From Nymphaea colorata (Eukaryota; Streptophyta; Magnoliopsida; Nymphaeales; Nymphaeaceae), in contig NC_045141.1 in assembly GCF_008831285.2 (NCBI RefSeq), positions 22,166,742 to 22,230,741 of the forward strand: 64,000 bases of DNA, in the 5' to 3' direction. The notes under the pieces were generated by a model. The model had not been told where the DNA came from, searched no databases, and worked only from the letters and a program-made list of their open reading frames with translations. The translations under genes were made by a program, and so were the position numbers. The number at the start of each line of letters is the position of its first letter. The stretch's first letter is position 1. Shown here one piece after another: positions 11,264 through 61,302 of the stretch.

Positions 11264-16533
<5,270 letters not shown>

Positions 16534-27884: not shown

Positions 27885-28095
27885 GGATACCGGATCTTAT
27901 GATTTCATTTTTGGATATGAGACCATGGTTGTTCACTTATCATTATTTGGTGTATTTGAATATATGTGTGTGTGAGGGAGAAAATATATATGTCTTTTTC
28001 AATTATCGCCTTTGTTATCTGAATACCGGATCTCATGATTTTTTTTTGGATATGAGACCATGGTTCTTCACTTATAGTCATTGGTGTATTTTGAA
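27885..28095. repeat. Two-copy direct repeat, period about 135
   Basis: GGATATGAGACCATGGTT and about 70 surrounding bases occur at 27885-27963 and again at 28020-28095. The repeat lies just upstream of the J-protein gene, possibly in its promoter. Confidence 0.8.
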
Positions 28096-28284
28096 TATGA
28101 GAAATAACCGATAAAATAGAAATATATAACAAAATTTGGAGACAAAATGTTTCTTATGTAAAAAAAAAAATCTGCAAAAAAAAAACAAACCGCAAAAACA
28201 GAAGCAGGAAGAAGAAATATACAATACAATGCACAGAAAAATAAGAGAGTCGGGGTGAGAGAAGAAAAACGGAGCGGCACAATC

Positions 28285-30070
28285 ACCCTGCCGCAAACGG
28301 GCAGCGACGCTTCAATCGAATGACAAACTGGACATCCCCTTGCACAATACGAGCCACAGAATCTGGCAAAGAGAAGGTGCCCCTGAAGACCCTATTGTTG
28401 CGCTCATCCCAAATGCGCCACCAAACTGAAATAAGCCACGACCTTGAGACATGACCACAAAAAGCAGATAGGTGGGGGGAAGGACAAAAGAGGGAAAGAA
28501 TACAAATGGATGGTGGATTTAAAAGACTAATAATAAGGAAATGCCAGATAGAAGCAAAGACACTAGAAAAAAAATGGCAAGAAGTAAAAATGTGGACCGA
28601 GACTCAGTCGCGACAAGACATAAGTGACACTGGTTAACCAAACTGATGTCAAGGCATTGTAGGTAGTCAAAAGTGTTGATATGAGCAGAAAGGAGAAGCC
28701 AGTCAAAAACAATGGCACGAGGAGATGGGCCAGGAGACCAAAGGGAACAGGGTGGGAGCGACGCGACAGAAGGACCAAAGGAGACCAGGTAGCAAGAAGA
28801 AAAAATGAACTCACAGGTAGGCGAAAGAGGTCAGGATGAGGACGCGGACGATGAGAGGTTAGCAAGACGGAAGAAAAGAGGAAAGACAAAAAGCATGTCG
28901 CACCAAAAGTGAGAGGGGGAGGTGTGAGAGATAGAATTATTCCAGACGCTAGGGGAAGGCAAGTCAAATTTGGAACTAATGAATTGAGTGCTGGGAGAAT
29001 GCTCAGTTGCTAACTGTCACCACCAAGAACACAGAGAATACTCGCAAGCCCAACTAAGATTGGTAACCCCAGCACTCCCAAGAAGACGCGGAAAGGCAAC
29101 CACATGTCAATGTGCTAGGCGATCCGAAGGTCTATCACCATTAAAATAAACTTATGAATGAACTTATTAAACCTACTCAAAACAGCCACAGGAGGCCAAA
29201 AGATAGCCAGAGCATGGAGGGACAAAGGCGCAAGACAATGCTTAGCTAGAGTAATACGGCCTAAAGAGAAAGTAGCTTTCCCTGCCAACACTGAAGGCGA
29301 TCATTAAGCTTCTACTCCATTCCATTCCAAAAGGAGGGTGCAGGAGGCGACAACGTAATCTGAAGGCCCAAATATTCCATGGAAAGACTAGTAGCCTTAC
29401 ACCCAAAGCAAGCTTCCACGAGAAGTACCGTGGTCGAATCCGCATGAATGAGGGAAAGATGACATTTGGCGAAATTGATAGAAAGACCCGAGATGAGCTT
29501 GAAAACCCGAAGGATGAGCCACGTTCTCACAATTTGTTGGCGGGAAGCATTGCTGAACAAGAGAAAGTCGTCAGCATACTGAAGGGTGGAAAATGTTTGT
29601 AAGTGGGAGAGCGAATGAAGTGTGAGGAAGCCAACGACCGTTGCATGATGAAAAAGCGCAGAAAAGCTCTCAGCAATCAAGTTGAAAAGCAAGGACGATA
29701 ACGGGCAACTTTGACGGAAGCCACGCCCGAGACAGAAGAAATCGCCACACTTTCCATTAAAGGAAACTGCAAGCTGGGCCCCAATGACAAGCGACATGAT
29801 CCACTGTCTAAACGATGGACCAAAAGCAAGACAGGTGAGGAGGTCAGAAAGAAACTCCCAACTAACCGAGTCAAAGACTTTAAAGATGTCCAACTTAAGG
29901 ATGAATGAAGGAAGCCGTAGACAGTAAAGAAAGTGAACAACCTCATTGGCCAGGACAACCGTGTCTTGCAGACGCCGACCCTTGACGAAAGCAACTTGAA
30001 AGAGGTTAATGATAGAAGGCATAACAGGCGTAAGCCGCTAACCATTCAAGCGAACACAAAGATAATTCAA
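28285..30070 (-). pseudogene. LINE retrotransposon fragment with reverse transcriptase
   Basis: A minus-strand frame at 29312-30022 reads reverse transcriptase motifs in order: QVAFVKGRRLQD, LKLDIFKVFDSVSW (first Asp of the active site), GFRQSCPLSSLLFNL, and LQYADDFLLFS (YADD). Further along, in other frames, is the typical LINE C-terminal end VWWRIWDERNNRVFRG, finishing at a stop near 28285. The element lacks its 5' half (endonuclease) and has frameshifts between the motifs, so it is dead. The 5' junction at about 30070 lies inside a tandem duplication (30040-30231). Confidence 0.85.
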
Positions 30071-41300: not shown

Positions 41301-42097
41301 TAAACTCTTTGTTCCTGTTATTTGTTTTTTCTACCATTGTGATGCTCTCCGATTATTAGGTTGACGATGGTCCAATGATTCATCTTTGAAATAAAGTTCT
41401 GGTGCACAAGCTATTAATTTCTGGAAGCTTAAAAAGTTCTCTGTGTTCCTTACTGTTCTTCCTTTTCTTCTTTTTCCTTTAAGATGTCAGAACCTTCCTT
41501 TCGAAGGCAGCAACTTGGAGCATGCTGGTTTTAGACTTAGGGATCTGAGGGAATGCCTTGTGTTTGAATCGGATGAGCTCAAAAGTTTCATGTCATAAAT
41601 TAACAAAAGCATTTACTTAATTTGCGCCGAAGGTTTTGTTTATGGATTAAGATCATCGGTGAACGTGATAGAAGGCATTTGCATATTCTGTGCAACGTAA
41701 TATCTTAATCGGTTAAAGCTTTTACAATAATTCAGCAGTGGCTTTTTCATGATGCACTTATTCTAGAAGCTTATGTAACTGTCAATAAGCAGTACGCTTC
41801 TTGTGAAGCCCAAAACGCCAAGCTCTCCTTCGTGTATTGTACAGTTTTCTTGGCTTTCGTTCGATTGCCGATCACTCCTGTCTTGATTTAGCTTTCATCT
41901 TCTATTTCAATATATTGTGTGATCTATTTTATCCATTTGCATCTCAATATAGTTTGCTTTTTTTTTTTATTGCTTCATCTTCAATTTTAATGTTGTTCTT
42001 TGTTTCGTTTTATTTTTCCTTCCTATATTTTCTCCAGCGCCAGTCACGTGCTCCCAAAAATGCCCTCTTGTTATATATATATATATATATATATATA
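38058..42097. other. KANADI promoter and intergenic DNA
   Basis: About 38058-39000 is probable promoter and includes a CT microsatellite at 38345-38372. From 39000 to 42070 I see no supportable gene; the short frames at 39747, 40456 and 41088 have no recognisable domains. A TA tract (42073-42098) abuts the MITE that follows. Confidence 0.4.
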
Positions 42098-42275
42098 TCA
42101 GCCGGCTAATTCTACGGTCAGGTAGCTTTTTTTTTTATTTTGTGTCAGTAAGCATTTTGTTACTAAAAGCCGAAACCAAGTAACTGGTAATCATAAATAC
42201 ATTTTTATAATGGTTTTTAGCAATACAAGATAAAAAACTAACCATATGGCCGTAAAAGTAGCCGGCTGATTTTAA
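42098..42275. mobile_element. MITE inserted in a TA microsatellite, about 178 bp
   Basis: The left end TCAGCCGGCTAATTCTACGG and the inverted right end TCAGCCGGCTACTTTTACGG differ at three positions. Both ends are flanked by TA runs (42073-42098 and about 42276-42294), as expected for an element that targets TA. The interior has no coding capacity. Confidence 0.65.
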
Positions 42276-45144
42276 TATATATATATATATATATCCTCAT
42301 TTTTTAAATATTTTTCATAAATCCAACTATTTGGACGAATATATAAAAAGTCAACAAATATAATTTGAAAATGAACCATGAAAATCCAATGTTAAGATTA
42401 TGTAGAAATGAGAATTTCAAGGTTAATGGTCATAGCTTTCTCTAGTTATAACATCCAATTTGGACATCAGATAATCGTCAATTTCTTTACTTCTACTTTT
42501 ACCCAAATATTGCATCCATGTATAATGTTAGGGCCATTGAACATTAATTACTAGCATAAAAGTTCACTAGACAAGCTGCTTCCTAGACAAGCCATTTGGG
42601 TATAGCCGTTGCTTTTCAGGCATAGAAGCCTGTTTTTCCAAGAACAGTGAAAATCCGGTGCATTGTAGACCGTTGATTTCCTGGACAGCGAGATAAAATC
42701 AGCATTAAGTGAATAAATTCCAGGACTTAATTCCTGCCCATTTTAACTTTTAGATCGGGAAAAAGAGAGTCATCCTTCTGATGCTAATATTTATTCCCAT
42801 GTCACTTTCATCCACGGGGATTGTGTATCACCAGAACCGTGTTTGTGGCTGTCTTGAAGCAAACAGGTGACAATGTAGAATCAACGCGACACTTGATCGT
42901 AGAATAAAAAGTTTTACCGTGACATAGCATCGGGCCTAAGAATAAATTTCTGACATCTAACTGTTCTTGTTTTGTCGCCCAAAGTTTCGAAACATGATGT
43001 GCATTGGACTGACTCCTGGATGTATCCAAATCTGGCCTTTTTTAGCTACAACGTGTACTGTTATGCCGTCTGCATTTATCTCACTTCAAATTGAAGGCTT
43101 TCCTTAAGTACGGATTCTCAAACATAACCAGAACTATGAGCAGATGAATCAACGCGGCTTAATTGGTTTATATGAAATTAATGAGACAGGAGCCTCATAA
43201 AGCCCGAGATTATTACAAATTTAGAGCTCTTTTTTTATGTTTTCTTTTTTCCGAAAACCACCCAATGCAGAGAGACTTTGTCGCTTGCCGGATGCAAAAC
43301 CTTGTTAGTTTAGTAAATTGATTATGTGGGGCGGAGTTTGCAGATATTGTTTAAGTTAGAAGACAGAAAGGGAAATGCTTGAAATGAGAGCAACTTAAGT
43401 CTGCTGGTCTTTGTAAAGTCCAATCATCCGGTGATCATTTAAACATGCAAAAGTTTCCAACATGAAGATGTTTAATGAGCCCATAAAGTAACTTATCTCT
43501 CACTCTAATCAATTGAGCCCGGGTTAATCTTGGTCTTCTGGCTAAAGGGCAGTCGTTATGAAATTTTAAATTTCTAAGGAGCACCAATACGTAAATGAGA
43601 AAAGTTACCTTGAAGTATCCATATAAAAGTAAGCATTTTCTGTGTAGGCAATTACCCACACAATGGCCACACCTGTACAGTTGCGAAACCATAAATTTTT
43701 GGCTAAGGAGCATAGTTGTAGAAATTTTATGGGGCACAACAGATATAAATAAGTAAATGATTGTAAGACGTCCACATACAAATAAAATAAAATAAAATAA
43801 TTGTTACTGGTGTGGGCAACTGCCCACGGCAGCCTACATAGCTCCGCTACTGCACCTGCCTCTGCCCCTAGTAGCTTGGGCTGAATTTGACCAAAGTGAC
43901 ACAGACAGAATAGCTTTCGACTTTTACCAGTTTGTGCTCGATTGGAGGGTATTATGGTCATTTTGACCATCGGGCCGGAAAAAAAAAGACCTGCTTGAGG
44001 TGGTTGGTTGGGCAATCTACTGGTCGTATATAGGGAAAAAAGCAGATGTGATGGATCAGGAGGATGCAGCGAACCAGTGCGAACAAGAATCTGGAGGATA
44101 AGAAGGAAGAGATGATCTGAAACACCAACTATTCTGGTTGTGAATATATCAATCAATTGGGTGGAAGAAAGAAAGAGTCTCAAAAATTCACCAACACTAA
44201 AGGTGGCATGGCATCTCTCTTTAAAAGATGCAAGGACCATGTCTTTATGATCAGTAAAAACACTAAAAAATGAGCTTTACTTGGTACAATACAATCCCAC
44301 TTTGATGATAAAGTCTCGCGCTGCCAACTAAGGCAGACTGAGCCACAAAAAATCAAGCACACAAGATTGGTGGGGGTCCAAAATCATGTGGACTCCAAAA
44401 AGCGAGTTCCATTTCATTAGAAAGTGAGTTTCATTAGATCACGAAACGGGATTTGTAGTCCCACAGAACTTGTTAGAGAGCGTCTGGACGTATGCATGGG
44501 GCGGGCCCCTGCTGTTCCTACGCCCCGAAGATGGCTGCTACAATAGCTGCAATCGATTCATTACATGTCAGGTTTTGAATTTCTTTACCATCATCAGCAG
44601 ATCTGAATCTGATTACTGTTCAGATCTCATGTCGCAGTTTCATATGAGTATCAGATGATCTTAATTCTTATGCTAGTTGGATTCGATTTTGGTTTTAGAA
44701 AACAGGGTATGAAGCCGAATTTAGATTAGCTATATTCAGCAAACAGGACTGTTTTCATCTTTAAGATTAGGGATGCCAATGGATCGTATTCAAATTCGAT
44801 GTACTTGTAACATATCCAGGATTTTTTGGTTATTCCTATATTCGGATTTTTTGGTTATTCCTATATTCGGATTCAAATACGAATCCAATTTTTATTCATA
44901 TCTGAATCCAAATATGAATTTTGAACCGAGTTCGACTCGTTTTCAGAATGTAAGAGCATTGGATTTAGGATTTTTATTTAAAACTAAATATGATCGGATA
45001 TTTTTGTAAGTCCAAATCTAAATCTGATTAGATGTCATTTCTTAAATCTATCTGATCCGATGATTTCTTAGTCAGATATTAAACCTTTTTACATTTGATA
45101 TTTTAGATTTGATCAGATATCTGATTCAAATTAGATACATTGCT
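42276..45144. other. Intergenic DNA with decayed repeats
   Basis: No gene is supportable. 43790-43870 (GTGTGGGCAACTGCCCAC and flanks) looks like the end of a dispersed element. From 44768 a block starts TAGGGATGCCAATGGATCG and is full of ATTCGGATTCAAAT-type motifs. It resembles 60949-61300 and is probably an old non-autonomous transposon, into which the hAT-like element at 45145 inserted. Confidence 0.4.
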
Positions 45145-46133
45145 TAGGCCTAGGCGTTGGGCCGGGCCAGGTTCGGGTACAGCCCGGGTTCGGGTCAAAT
45201 ATTTTCTTTATCGTGCTCAACTTCAACTTGAGTGAGCCCGGCCCGGCCCGGCCCGAGATCTTAACGGGTCGGGCCCGGTTATCATTCTCTAGGCCCAGCC
45301 TGGCCCGACGGCCCGTTAGGTCTTCCTTCCTCCGCCGCGCCCTGCCGCCCTCCCTCCCCTTTTGCATTTTCCCGTTCGTCGTCGTCGAACTACGCTGGTC
45401 TCTTTCATGGTTGCCATCAACGGCGTCGTCGGCGACAAACCCGCTGGAGAACAAGCCCACCGAAGAGTACCGAGCTTCTCATCTGAAAGCTACCCTTCCA
45501 GTGTCTCGTCCGTGTGATCGCTCAGGATTTCAAGACCGATCTGAGGTTTCAGACCAGCGCCATTGTAGCACTTCAGGACACCAATCTGTGCACCATCCAC
45601 ACCAAGAGGGTGACGATCATGCCGAAGGATATCCAATTGGCAAGGCGCATCAGGGGCAAGCGCGCTTGATCGCGTACATTGGAAGCATGTTGGTGCCTGG
45701 CGAAGATTAGTTTTGCTAGGGTTTCCCGTCCTTTCTTTCTGTTTGCGTTTTGGGGTTGGAAATGGTGAAGATCGCCTACATCACACTTTGTTGCTGCACG
45801 GGAGAGCGACACAGAAAATCTCCGATGGAAGGAAGAGGTCGGGGAAGGAAGGGAGCGGACGGCTGCCTTGGTCGCCGTCTGGGAACGGAGGGAAGCCGAT
45901 GGGGTCGTTGGCAGGGCGGAGAGCCGACGGGGAGGAGGCGAAGACGGTCGTGTGGGCATCAGGCTGACCCGACAAGACCCGGCCCGGCCCGGTCCGCCAG
46001 TTAACAAAAACAGGCCGCGCTGGGCCTCGGGCATGGTCGAGTCCAGGCCCGGTACCCAGCCTGGTATGTCAAATAATCGGGCCAGGTCTTGGGCCTGACG
46101 GGCCGGCCCGGCCCGGCCCGATACCCAGGCCTA
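45145..46133. mobile_element. hAT-like non-autonomous element carrying a histone H3 fragment
   Basis: 989 bp. The left end reads TAGGCCTAGGCGTTGGGCC and the inverted right end TAGGCCTGGGTATCGGGCC, followed on both sides by GGGCC-rich subterminal sequence. The TAGGCCTGGG type of end is common in plant hAT families. The 8-mer before the left end is ACATTGCT; right after the right end is ATATAATA, and a near match ACATCGCT lies 14 bases further on, so the duplication is unclear. There is no transposase. The interior is much richer in G+C than the flanks and contains a spliced, deleted copy of a histone H3 gene (45463-45669). Confidence 0.75.
45463..45669 (+). pseudogene. Captured histone H3 fragment
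   Basis: Starting at AAG AGT ACC GAG, the frame reads KSTELLI, a stop (TGA at 45484-45486 where H3 has Arg), then [50 protein letters not shown] and [10 protein letters not shown], with TGA at 45667-45669. This is the C-terminal half of histone H3. Twelve residues between ALQ and DTNLC, normally the EAAEAYLVGLFE region, are missing by a clean in-frame deletion. Upstream, about ten bases around 45453-45463 (AAGCCCACCG) look like the KKPHR codons, joined after a second deletion. With the internal stop and lost histone-fold residues it cannot make H3. No intron is present in the retained part. Confidence 0.85.
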
Positions 46134-46862
46134 ATATAATAATATTGACATCGCTATATAAAATCTGAAATTCAAATCACCAAGAGGTGATTTGAAACTG
46201 CAAGTTCCGGTACTGGCAAAAAGTGGTTGCTTTTCTCTCACTCTCTCTTGTGTAAAGAATATGATCCAAACCTTGTTTCCTGTGAAATCAACGACCATGT
46301 ATCCATCCATATGGAGTTTGATTTCAGTGATGAGGATGAGCGATAAGATTTTGGTGAGAGTTCCGATCTGGTCCAAGTTGGATCCACTCGTAATGGTTTT
46401 GAGACAGATCCATTGTCTATGACAACTGATTTAATGACTTATATTCTTACTTGAAATTTTGAAACCGAATCCACATTCAATTACAAAGGTAAGATATGGC
46501 TTTCCATGTATAGTCAGGTCAGTCAGATCCTTATCAAATTAAGGACTCAAACTCAAATTCATATACCCGACCCATATACTGAATTCAAGTTGGACTATAA
46601 CTAGGATCCGTTTTGCCTTGTCAAATCCAAAACCATGCACGCCTGATCCAGGATCCATTTAGAAATCCAAGTTGGACATGGCTGTAAAACCAGACCCGTA
46701 ATGCGCTTCATTAATTGTTCAATTAAACTGTAAAAGTGCAGATGCCATAACTGGGGAACAATGGTGTTACATATCACATGCGGTGCTTTAAAAGTGAGAT
46801 CGGTTAACAGAAGAGCAAAATTAACGTCATCCCATCAACATGTGACTTAGATATCAACACCA

Positions 46863-47002
46863 CAATCAAATGTATTTAGTACCCACCAAAAACTTTATCT
46901 TACCAAATTACTGAGGGTAAAGTGAAAGTGAGCAATCAAATGTATTTAGTACCCACCAAAAACTTTATCTTACCAAATTACTGAGGGTAAAGTGAAAGTG
47001 AG
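46863..47002. repeat. Perfect 70-bp tandem duplication
   Basis: Units 46863-46932 and 46933-47002 are identical, beginning CAATCAAATGTATTTAGTAC and ending GTGAAAGTGAG. Identity at every position implies a recent event. Confidence 0.95.
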
Positions 47003-47599
47003 GTGGTAAAAGAAGAGTCCTACGCATCCTAAGCTAGCTTTCACATGGTTTTGACGTAGTGCTGTCACTATTAGCTCCAGTGTCGTACCGGTTCGATTCA
47101 ACGCCCATAATTGCCGACACGTCTTTATTTTTTCTTTTTTTTTTAAAAAAAAAATGTTTTCAAGCAGGGCGTGCTCGATCTGACGACGCCCTGATATGAC
47201 TGTTACTGCATATTTGATTCCATTTATAAATCCATTTTCTTTTCTATGAGTTTCAGTATCTATAAAAATTAGAATTTTTACTGTTTCTATGGTTTCTATC
47301 TTATTGTTATAATATGAATATGCCAATTAGTTATCTATGACGTAGGGAATGATGGAAGCACCGAGTCCTTGAACTTGGGCAGAGATCAGGTAAGAATTTT
47401 TTTTTAACTTACATGTAAAATTTAAAAAAAAAAAATCATTTATCCTATATAAATATTTTGAAAAATTATATTTCAACCCTTGTTAAAATTTTAAAACTAT
47501 AATTCATTCCTCATGAAAAATTCTTACCTTCACCCTCGATGCCAGCTATATTTGTAACTAATTGGAGTGCAACATATATGTCGTTTGCATTTGCATTCT

Positions 47600-47730
47600 A
47601 GAGAAATAGCTCCATGGGAATCAAACTAACAACTGGGCTTTCTCTAGCCCACCAGTTCGACTAGCCCTCCATAACAACTCGGCTTTCACTAGCCCACCAG
47701 TTCGACCAGCCCTCCATAAAAGATTTATAC
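47600..47730 (-). mobile_element. SINE-like copy with internal 45-bp duplication
   Basis: The minus strand reads TAGTCGAACTGGTGGGC (A-box-like) and GTTTGATTCCCATGG (B-box). The A-box half is present twice because of a 45-bp tandem duplication (units from 47627 and 47672). A weaker relative lies near 1525-1600. Confidence 0.45.
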
Positions 47731-48699
47731 CAAGATAAATTGCTAGGTTAAGGAGCTACATATTGGACTAGAATAGAAGCAAAGGTTTGAGTCCAATAAT
47801 ATTTAGGGAGTCCATCTTTCATCGCAAAGCCAAACACAGGGGAAAATAGCTTTGAGGAGTTTTATACTACATGTTACCAAAACAACGGTTCCTGCATGAC
47901 ATGTCTTAGTATATAATCAAGATTGTAATTAAGGAATCGATAACAATTTTAGGTCAATGTTTTGTTACTAAAGCAACTGTTTTAAGTAGTTGATTTCCTT
48001 ATACATATGCACCAAACATAGTCTAGTCTAGTCACAGTTAACGTACAAATAACTCGCTTTTAAAAAGACTCCTTGAACAAGATGTTGGTTTTTAACCAAT
48101 CTTTAAGAAGTTAAAAAAATTTAAAAATTTGGTCGCACTCTTTGTGAAATTAAAACCTACATCTACCACCCAATTACCCATCAAGCGAAGCCGGTCATGT
48201 ATATCTTATTATGCATGAAAATTTCGTACACCAGTATGGTTAATGACAAAAATACAATACACCAGTATGGTTAATGACAAAAATACCCTTGAAAGCAAAC
48301 CTTTTTCTTGAAAAAAGTAAAAAAAACTAAAAAAGCCATTCCCTTTTAAATAATTTCTAAAATATCTCAACTCCTTATCCTTTCCCCGCCCTCTGGTCTC
48401 TCTCGCCTTCACTCGCTTTCTCACCCTTTATATCTTCGTAGATTTTCCATTGCCATTGTTTATGAAAACTTTTTCGAGCAAGCCATTGGTGGGATGATAA
48501 TTGGGGCGGATTGGGGCGGATTAGGTTCAACCATCCCTCCTTTCCTAGATCCACATTTGAATTAAACCTCATTTAATGTAGTTGTTAATTATGTCAATTT
48601 TCTCTTCAATGTCAAAGCTTGGCTTCATATAATTCCAAACTACATATCCTTATTTGAATAACAGTCCCAAAAAACTATGGATAATGTACTTATTCGGTA

Positions 48700-60948: not shown

Positions 60949-61302
60949 TGTAGGGATGTCAACGGATCGGATACATCTTTAATCATATCCGTTTTTTCGG
61001 ATATTCATATATTCGGATTCAAATTCATATCCGAATCCGATCCAAATCCGATTTTTATATTTATATCTGAATCCGAATCCGAATTTTGAATCGGATTTTG
61101 CCATTTTCCAAGTATTAGATAGAGGATATTTGTCTAAAAATGAATCTGATCCGAATCCGATCCGATCCGATATTCATGTATATCCGAACCCGAATCCGAT
61201 CGGATGTCATTTATTAAATCCGAATCCGATCCGATTTCTGAATCGGATATTAAATTTTTATCCATATCCGATTTTTTCAGATATAAATTTAAATCCTTTC
61301 TG
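60949..61302. mobile_element. Decayed element rich in ATCCGAATCC motifs
   Basis: Begins TAGGGATGTCAACGGATCGG and is filled with ATCCGAATCCGATCCGAT-like repeats in both orientations. A relative starts at 44768 (TAGGGATGCCAATGGATCG). This kind of end and subterminal repeat is typical of non-autonomous plant DNA transposons. The right boundary is not clear; the 124-bp inverted arm begins at 61303. Confidence 0.45.

Follow-up and report, generated by a model that had tools for sequence, protein, structure and literature searches.

The DNA considered here is a 64-kb stretch, hereafter 'the window', which resembles plant nuclear DNA, i.e., its open reading frames match AMP-binding, DnaJ/DUF3444, FHA, Myb, and reverse transcriptase families. 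The AMP-binding reading frame presumably is 4CL-like. Scans of the whole window against Rfam (gathering threshold) and for tRNAs returned nothing. The locus of interest is a GC-rich block with inverted TAGGCCT ends, described here as the 'inner element', which carries a piece of histone H3 and which appears to lie between the ends of a longer, Ac-like 'outer element' (Table 1).

Table 1. Features of the H3-bearing locus, in window coordinates.
Feature	Position	Strand	Basis or remark
Imperfect 8-bp duplication flanking the outer element, left copy (TTTAAGAT)	44760..44767		flank comparison
Ac-like outer element (TAGGGATGCCAA ... TTGACATCGCTA), with the inner element as interruption	44768..46156		paired ends and shuffles
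Inner element with TAGGCCT ends, carrying the H3 piece	45145..46133		989 bp, 60% GC
Left terminal inverted repeat, TAGGCCTAGGCGTTGGGCCGGGCC...	45145..45171	+	repeat finding and end comparison
Left arm, with GGGCC/GGCCCG motifs	45145..45320		62.5% GC
Histone H3 K56-Q93, a stop replacing R63 (45484-45486)	45463..45576	+	reading frame and tblastn
Histone H3 D106-A135, fused straight to Q93, without E94-E105	45577..45666	+	reading frame, Pfam, tblastn
H3 stop codon TGA	45667..45669	+	reading frame and tblastn
AT-richer stretch past the H3 stop, 47% GC	45670..45745	+	composition
Right arm, with GGGCC/GGCCCG motifs	45961..46133		68.8% GC
Right terminal inverted repeat, TAGGCCTGGGTATCGGGCCGGGCC... 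(outside in)	46107..46133	-	repeat finding and end comparison
ACATCGCT, a 7/8 match to ACATTGCT at 45137-45144	46148..46155		14 nt beyond the right inner end
Imperfect 8-bp duplication flanking the outer element, right copy (TATAAAAT), 6/8	46157..46164		flank comparison

Inverted TAGGCCT ends 989 bp apart were reported in the initial annotation, and a repeat search agrees, with inverted arms of 28 nt (45144-45171 and 46107-46134) that are 82% complementary; the end coordinates, 45145 and 46133, are right. Counting from those two positions, the ends agree at 9 of their first 12 bases and at 22 of their first 28. Short terminal inverted repeats, as in the hAT superfamily, that is, are present on the inner element. 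The tip sequence taken by itself is no rarity. Allowing at most one mismatch, TAGGCCTRGGC is found three times in the 64-kb window, a count that 9 of 100 shuffles reach. Also rightly described from the start was GGGCC-rich subterminal DNA, particularly as seen with the word GGCCCG, for which 12 of the 14 plus-strand sites in the window lie inside of the inner element and about 170 nt or less from its ends. Related plus-strand words show less of such clustering (CGGGCC, 4 of 8 window sites; GGCCC, 13 of 32; GGGCC itself, 7 of 35). The inner element as a whole stands out from its surroundings in terms of GC content, i.e., 60% vs. 36.5% and 37.7% for the 2-kb stretches 42001-44000 and 46001-48000, respectively.

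The outer arms of the inner element, taken as 186 and 188 nt, were compared with each other, the null being obtained by shuffling the right arm 1000 times with dinucleotides preserved. For the inverted orientation, the local score is 31.5 (shuffle maximum 26.5, with 0 of 1000 as high), and the same-orientation local score, at 36.5, is above it. Global scores are instead 22.5 inverted vs. 13.5 in the same orientation, with at least 22.5 reached by 0 of 1000 shuffles. Because local and global scores split in this manner by orientation, the arms are described here as motif-rich in both directions, without a long clean inverted repeat. There are no further copies of the inner element in the 64-kb window (best E 0.18), comparison of its ends with viral contigs gave 0 matches, and its two open reading frames of at least 150 amino acids match no Pfam family at E 0.1. 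No transposase is recognisable within it.

Between these arms is found the C-terminal half of histone H3, with one stop and a 12-residue deletion, just as originally reported. Thus, whole-window tblastn with a plant H3.1 protein (a hand-typed reference) gives an in-frame match to K56-A135 at 45463-45666, E 2e-30, with the stop at R63 and with E94-E105 missing; the second and last match for H3 across the window is of E 2.6, at 11329. The Pfam family Histone matches the portion past the internal stop at 9.5e-17, and PDB H3 chains match at 3.6e-30. Differences from plant H3.1 involve 9 of 68 residues with the stop counted, i.e., eight amino-acid changes plus that stop. All nine are possible by one base change each, and seven of the nine are possible as C>T or G>A, a pattern as in decaying methylated DNA. 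The H3 piece is decayed rather than a working histone.

For H3 residues 1-57, frameshift-tolerant codon alignment to the DNA beside the H3 piece is no better than to shuffles, with 113 of 150 shuffles scoring at or above the actual upstream sequence on the plus strand and 98 on the minus strand, and with 100 and 104, respectively, doing so downstream. Sensitive tblastn of the 2.5 kb from 44500 to 47000 yields two weak minus-strand matches in the inner element (E 0.020 and 0.036), with that at 45920-45843 equalled in 4 of 500 shuffles and that at 45397-45248 in 21 of 500. These are not claimed as matches to the H3 amino tail, a tail which is low in sequence variety and for which several looks were taken. 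The minus-strand reading frame at 45843-45920, faintly like that tail (ATKAA..S), probably is so by chance. As for H3 running past the terminal repeats, a possibility that the initial annotation proposed checking, the flanks of this copy contain no credible H3, with nothing better than E 5 among the matches listed for tblastn of 44500-47000. What is seen, as is characteristic of Pack-TYPE elements, is a cellular gene fragment bounded by terminal repeats and without credible H3 continuation into the flanks.

Past the H3 stop, the AT-richer stretch at 45670-45745 possibly is captured H3 3′ untranslated sequence, as its composition suggests. Found over the longer 45670-45960 are GCTAGGGTTTC and then an ATG at 45762, and this sequence could be H3 3′ sequence or instead a second captured 5′ gene end.

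The H3 block seems to be surrounded by an outer, hAT-type element, which the initial annotation missed. Ac-type hAT miniature elements have TAGGGATG ends, and with the left flank from 44768, TAGGGATGCCAATGGATCG, an Ac-like miniature element begins. This outer left end has a single inverted partner within 4 kb at 9/12 or better, i.e., at 46145-46156, agreeing at 10 of 12 positions, and the outer element in this manner has inverted ends of TAGGGATG type. A partner of this quality is found alone in 13.5% of 5000 shuffles and, along with a 6/8 duplication, in 4 of 5000 (0.08%; 1 of 300 in a smaller run), these being nulls which preserve base composition only and for a pair tested after having been noticed. 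A diverged relative is present at 60951-61282, 66% identical and with a clear left end, though with no recognisable right end. An empty site in that relative is not shown, as the blastn alignment falls short of the insertion point by 36 nt; when the flanks are joined and aligned more loosely, the alignment does cross the join, at low identity. The H3-bearing block seems to sit inside of this older element, 23 nt from its right end.

Directly at the inner ends an 8-bp duplication is absent, with ACATTGCT (45137-45144) and ATATAATA alike at 3 of 8 positions. Since the stated ends lack that duplication, the inner block is classed not as a proven hAT element but instead as an inverted-repeat element which resembles hAT elements and which carries a gene fragment. 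That is, of the original hAT-like designation, what stands is the end sequence and the motif-rich arms, to which the label now owes everything, and what does not stand is an 8-bp duplication at those ends. The associated interpretation, that the element captured an H3 segment, is supported in part. A gene fragment truly is present between ends which are inverted and rich in motifs.

Taken together, the locus probably consists of a Pack-type element, non-autonomous and now decayed, whose ends are hAT-like, which captured an H3.1 3′ fragment, and which is nested in an older hAT-type element. In favor are the ends, the motif-rich arms, H3 being bounded inside of those ends, the predominance of possible C>T or G>A changes, S87 (below), the lack of Pfam matches for the two longer reading frames, the outer ends along with their duplication, and the published Pack-hAT elements. 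Against are the 3/8 agreement at the inner ends, the single copy in the window, the higher same-orientation local score, the commonness of the tip, the hand-typed H3.1 reference, and, for the outer pair, its testing after having been noticed, the 13.5% of shuffles matching its ends alone, and the relative without a recognisable right end. A 3′ fragment of an H3.1-type gene, from codon 56 to the stop and perhaps including some 3′ untranslated DNA, would have landed between terminal repeats, with capture probably via gap-filling repair of element DNA using the gene as template. Gap-filling is a model discussed for animal Pack-TIRs (PMC8277862). The element, as its nested ends suggest, would then have inserted near the right end of the older Ac-like hAT-type element. 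The H3 piece presumably decayed without selection, acquiring the stop along with eight amino-acid changes and losing 36 nt, a deletion best explained as short-repeat mediated. Movement would occur only given transposase from an autonomous relative. We infer the mobility of the inner element, its capture route, and its nesting order, and most likely the H3-bearing element is without function.

From a different perspective, the TAGGCCT segment would not be a mobile element at all, with the outer Ac-like element at 44768-46156 instead the real transposon and the GC-rich H3 block captured filler. This we consider unlikely. In its favor, it is the outer ends which come with an imperfect 6/8 duplication and the inner ends which come with none. 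The GC-rich block nonetheless possesses its own matching ends as well as motif-rich arms on both sides, which are not expected of random filler. In addition, the outer right end rests on one copy, as the relative at 60951 is without a clear right end.

Which class of histone gene served as donor bears on a second alternative. Plant H3.1 genes are intronless and encode A31, F41, S87, and A90; plant H3.3 genes are intron-containing and encode T31, Y41, H87, and L90 (PMC4357034). The H3 piece possesses S87 and V90. As S87 is a direct fit to H3.1 and is two base changes from H87, an H3.1-like donor is favored, i.e., what would appear by sequence to have been an H3.1-type histone gene; V90 could arise from A or from L, in both cases by a single change. 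The initial annotation viewed the piece as 'processed-looking', which is a description that is not supported, since the donor resembles intronless H3.1, and which does not point to an RNA origin. That is, with an intronless donor class, a lack of introns is uninformative as to an RNA intermediate.

One could suppose instead that a spliced H3 transcript (retrocopy) was captured, with 12 residues lost because a transcript of H3.3 type, containing introns, was spliced at a cryptic site at Q93/D106. Indeed, the gap begins right after ALQ, which is where animal H3.3 genes have an intron. The hAT-borne H3 of Pseudocercospora fijiensis, too, is without introns and was read as transcript or retrocopy (PMC6710886). 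We nevertheless judge this supposition to be very improbable, as S87 could derive from H87, the residue of H3.3, only via two base changes, as absence of introns is of no help given intronless plant H3.1 genes, and as no poly(A) tract is visible past the H3 stop. The gap, furthermore, is accounted for by microhomology, with the 36-nt loss sitting at 2-4 nt of possible microhomology, depending on which codons were lost.

Near the right inner end, the ACATCGCT of Table 1 either belongs to the inner element, as a duplication that is displaced, or is part of the outer right end. When 20000 flanks were shuffled, 1.05% gave a match of 7/8 or better at 20 nt or less away, and such a match is likewise seen at 1.4% of 62800 positions in the window. 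A hAT insertion whose duplication is ACATTGCT/ACATCGCT, adjoining the left end but separated from the right end by 14 nt (ATATAATAATATTG) of filler, and with the outer-right-end match a coincidence, is highly improbable, as the outer right end explains the same bases and as filler exactly between end and duplication is unusual.

Gene capture was initially held to be less documented for hAT elements, which is an assessment that needs correcting in light of the literature. Maize and rice have Pack-hAT elements (PMC8903248), hAT elements make up 208 of 370 Pack-TIRs in animals (PMC8277862), and an H3-like gene is found in a hAT element of Pyrenophora tritici-repentis (PMC3538342). In P. fijiensis, an H3-carrying hAT is present in hundreds of inactivated copies, and five related genomes show evidence of something similar having occurred (PMC6710886); the Pyrenophora case was judged by the authors of that study to be independent. 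As Pack-hAT and fungal hAT-H3 cases thus are published, neither hAT gene capture nor H3 as cargo is new.

The Pack-hAT elements of maize and rice are likewise without transposase, with gene fragments likewise enclosed by inverted ends. Every hAT element of that study possesses an 8-nt duplication, upon which its method relies, and these elements are found in clusters, duplication and clustering both being partly required by the method (PMC8903248); for the inner element no duplication was found. The fungal hAT-H3 elements also possess H3 between inverted hAT ends, decayed in Pseudocercospora (PMC3538342, PMC6710886). These, however, are 2.3 to 9.9 kb in length and number tens to hundreds of copies, many or all of which contain hAT domains. 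In P. fijiensis they display 8-bp duplications, and in P. tritici-repentis their H3-like genes are full-length. The inner element, by contrast, is a 1-kb plant segment with the 3′ part only of H3 and for which no duplication was found.

The outer element, in starting with TAGGGATGCCAATGG and having a relative at 60951, is like Ac-type hAT miniatures, but unlike them is interrupted by an H3-bearing block. Rice Dart/nDart1 elements have GC-rich, motif-bearing arms. That hAT family likewise includes non-autonomous members, and the 19-bp Dart end is TAGAGGTGGCCAAATGGGC on the element strand, so also starts with TAG (PMC2956540, PMC4585910). The inner end, TAGGCCTAGGCGTTGGGCC, nonetheless differs from the Dart end, and Dart has an 8-bp duplication (same sources), with none found for the inner element.

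No plant hAT-H3 case is evident among the listed titles and openings of abstracts from the open-licence PMC literature, and the word 'histone' has 0 occurrences in the main text of PMC8903248. The H3-bearing element alone is one decayed fragment without sign of function. Should further copies confirm its ends, then it would represent a plant case of histone H3 in a hAT-type element, following two independent fungal cases, and would raise the question of whether histone genes are captured above expectation. A broader conjecture, and quite an unlikely one, is that hAT-type elements captured H3 independently in plants and twice in fungi, with this recurrence reflecting H3 genes being favored repair templates, i.e., as short, intronless units which are of many copies and active in S phase.

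Elsewhere in the window, a perfect tandem duplication of 70 bp, in two copies, is found at 46863-47002. A minus-strand reading frame at 29312-30022, which matches the reverse transcriptase family RVT_1 and which presumably is LINE-like, is located in a strongly AT-skewed stretch (28001-30000).
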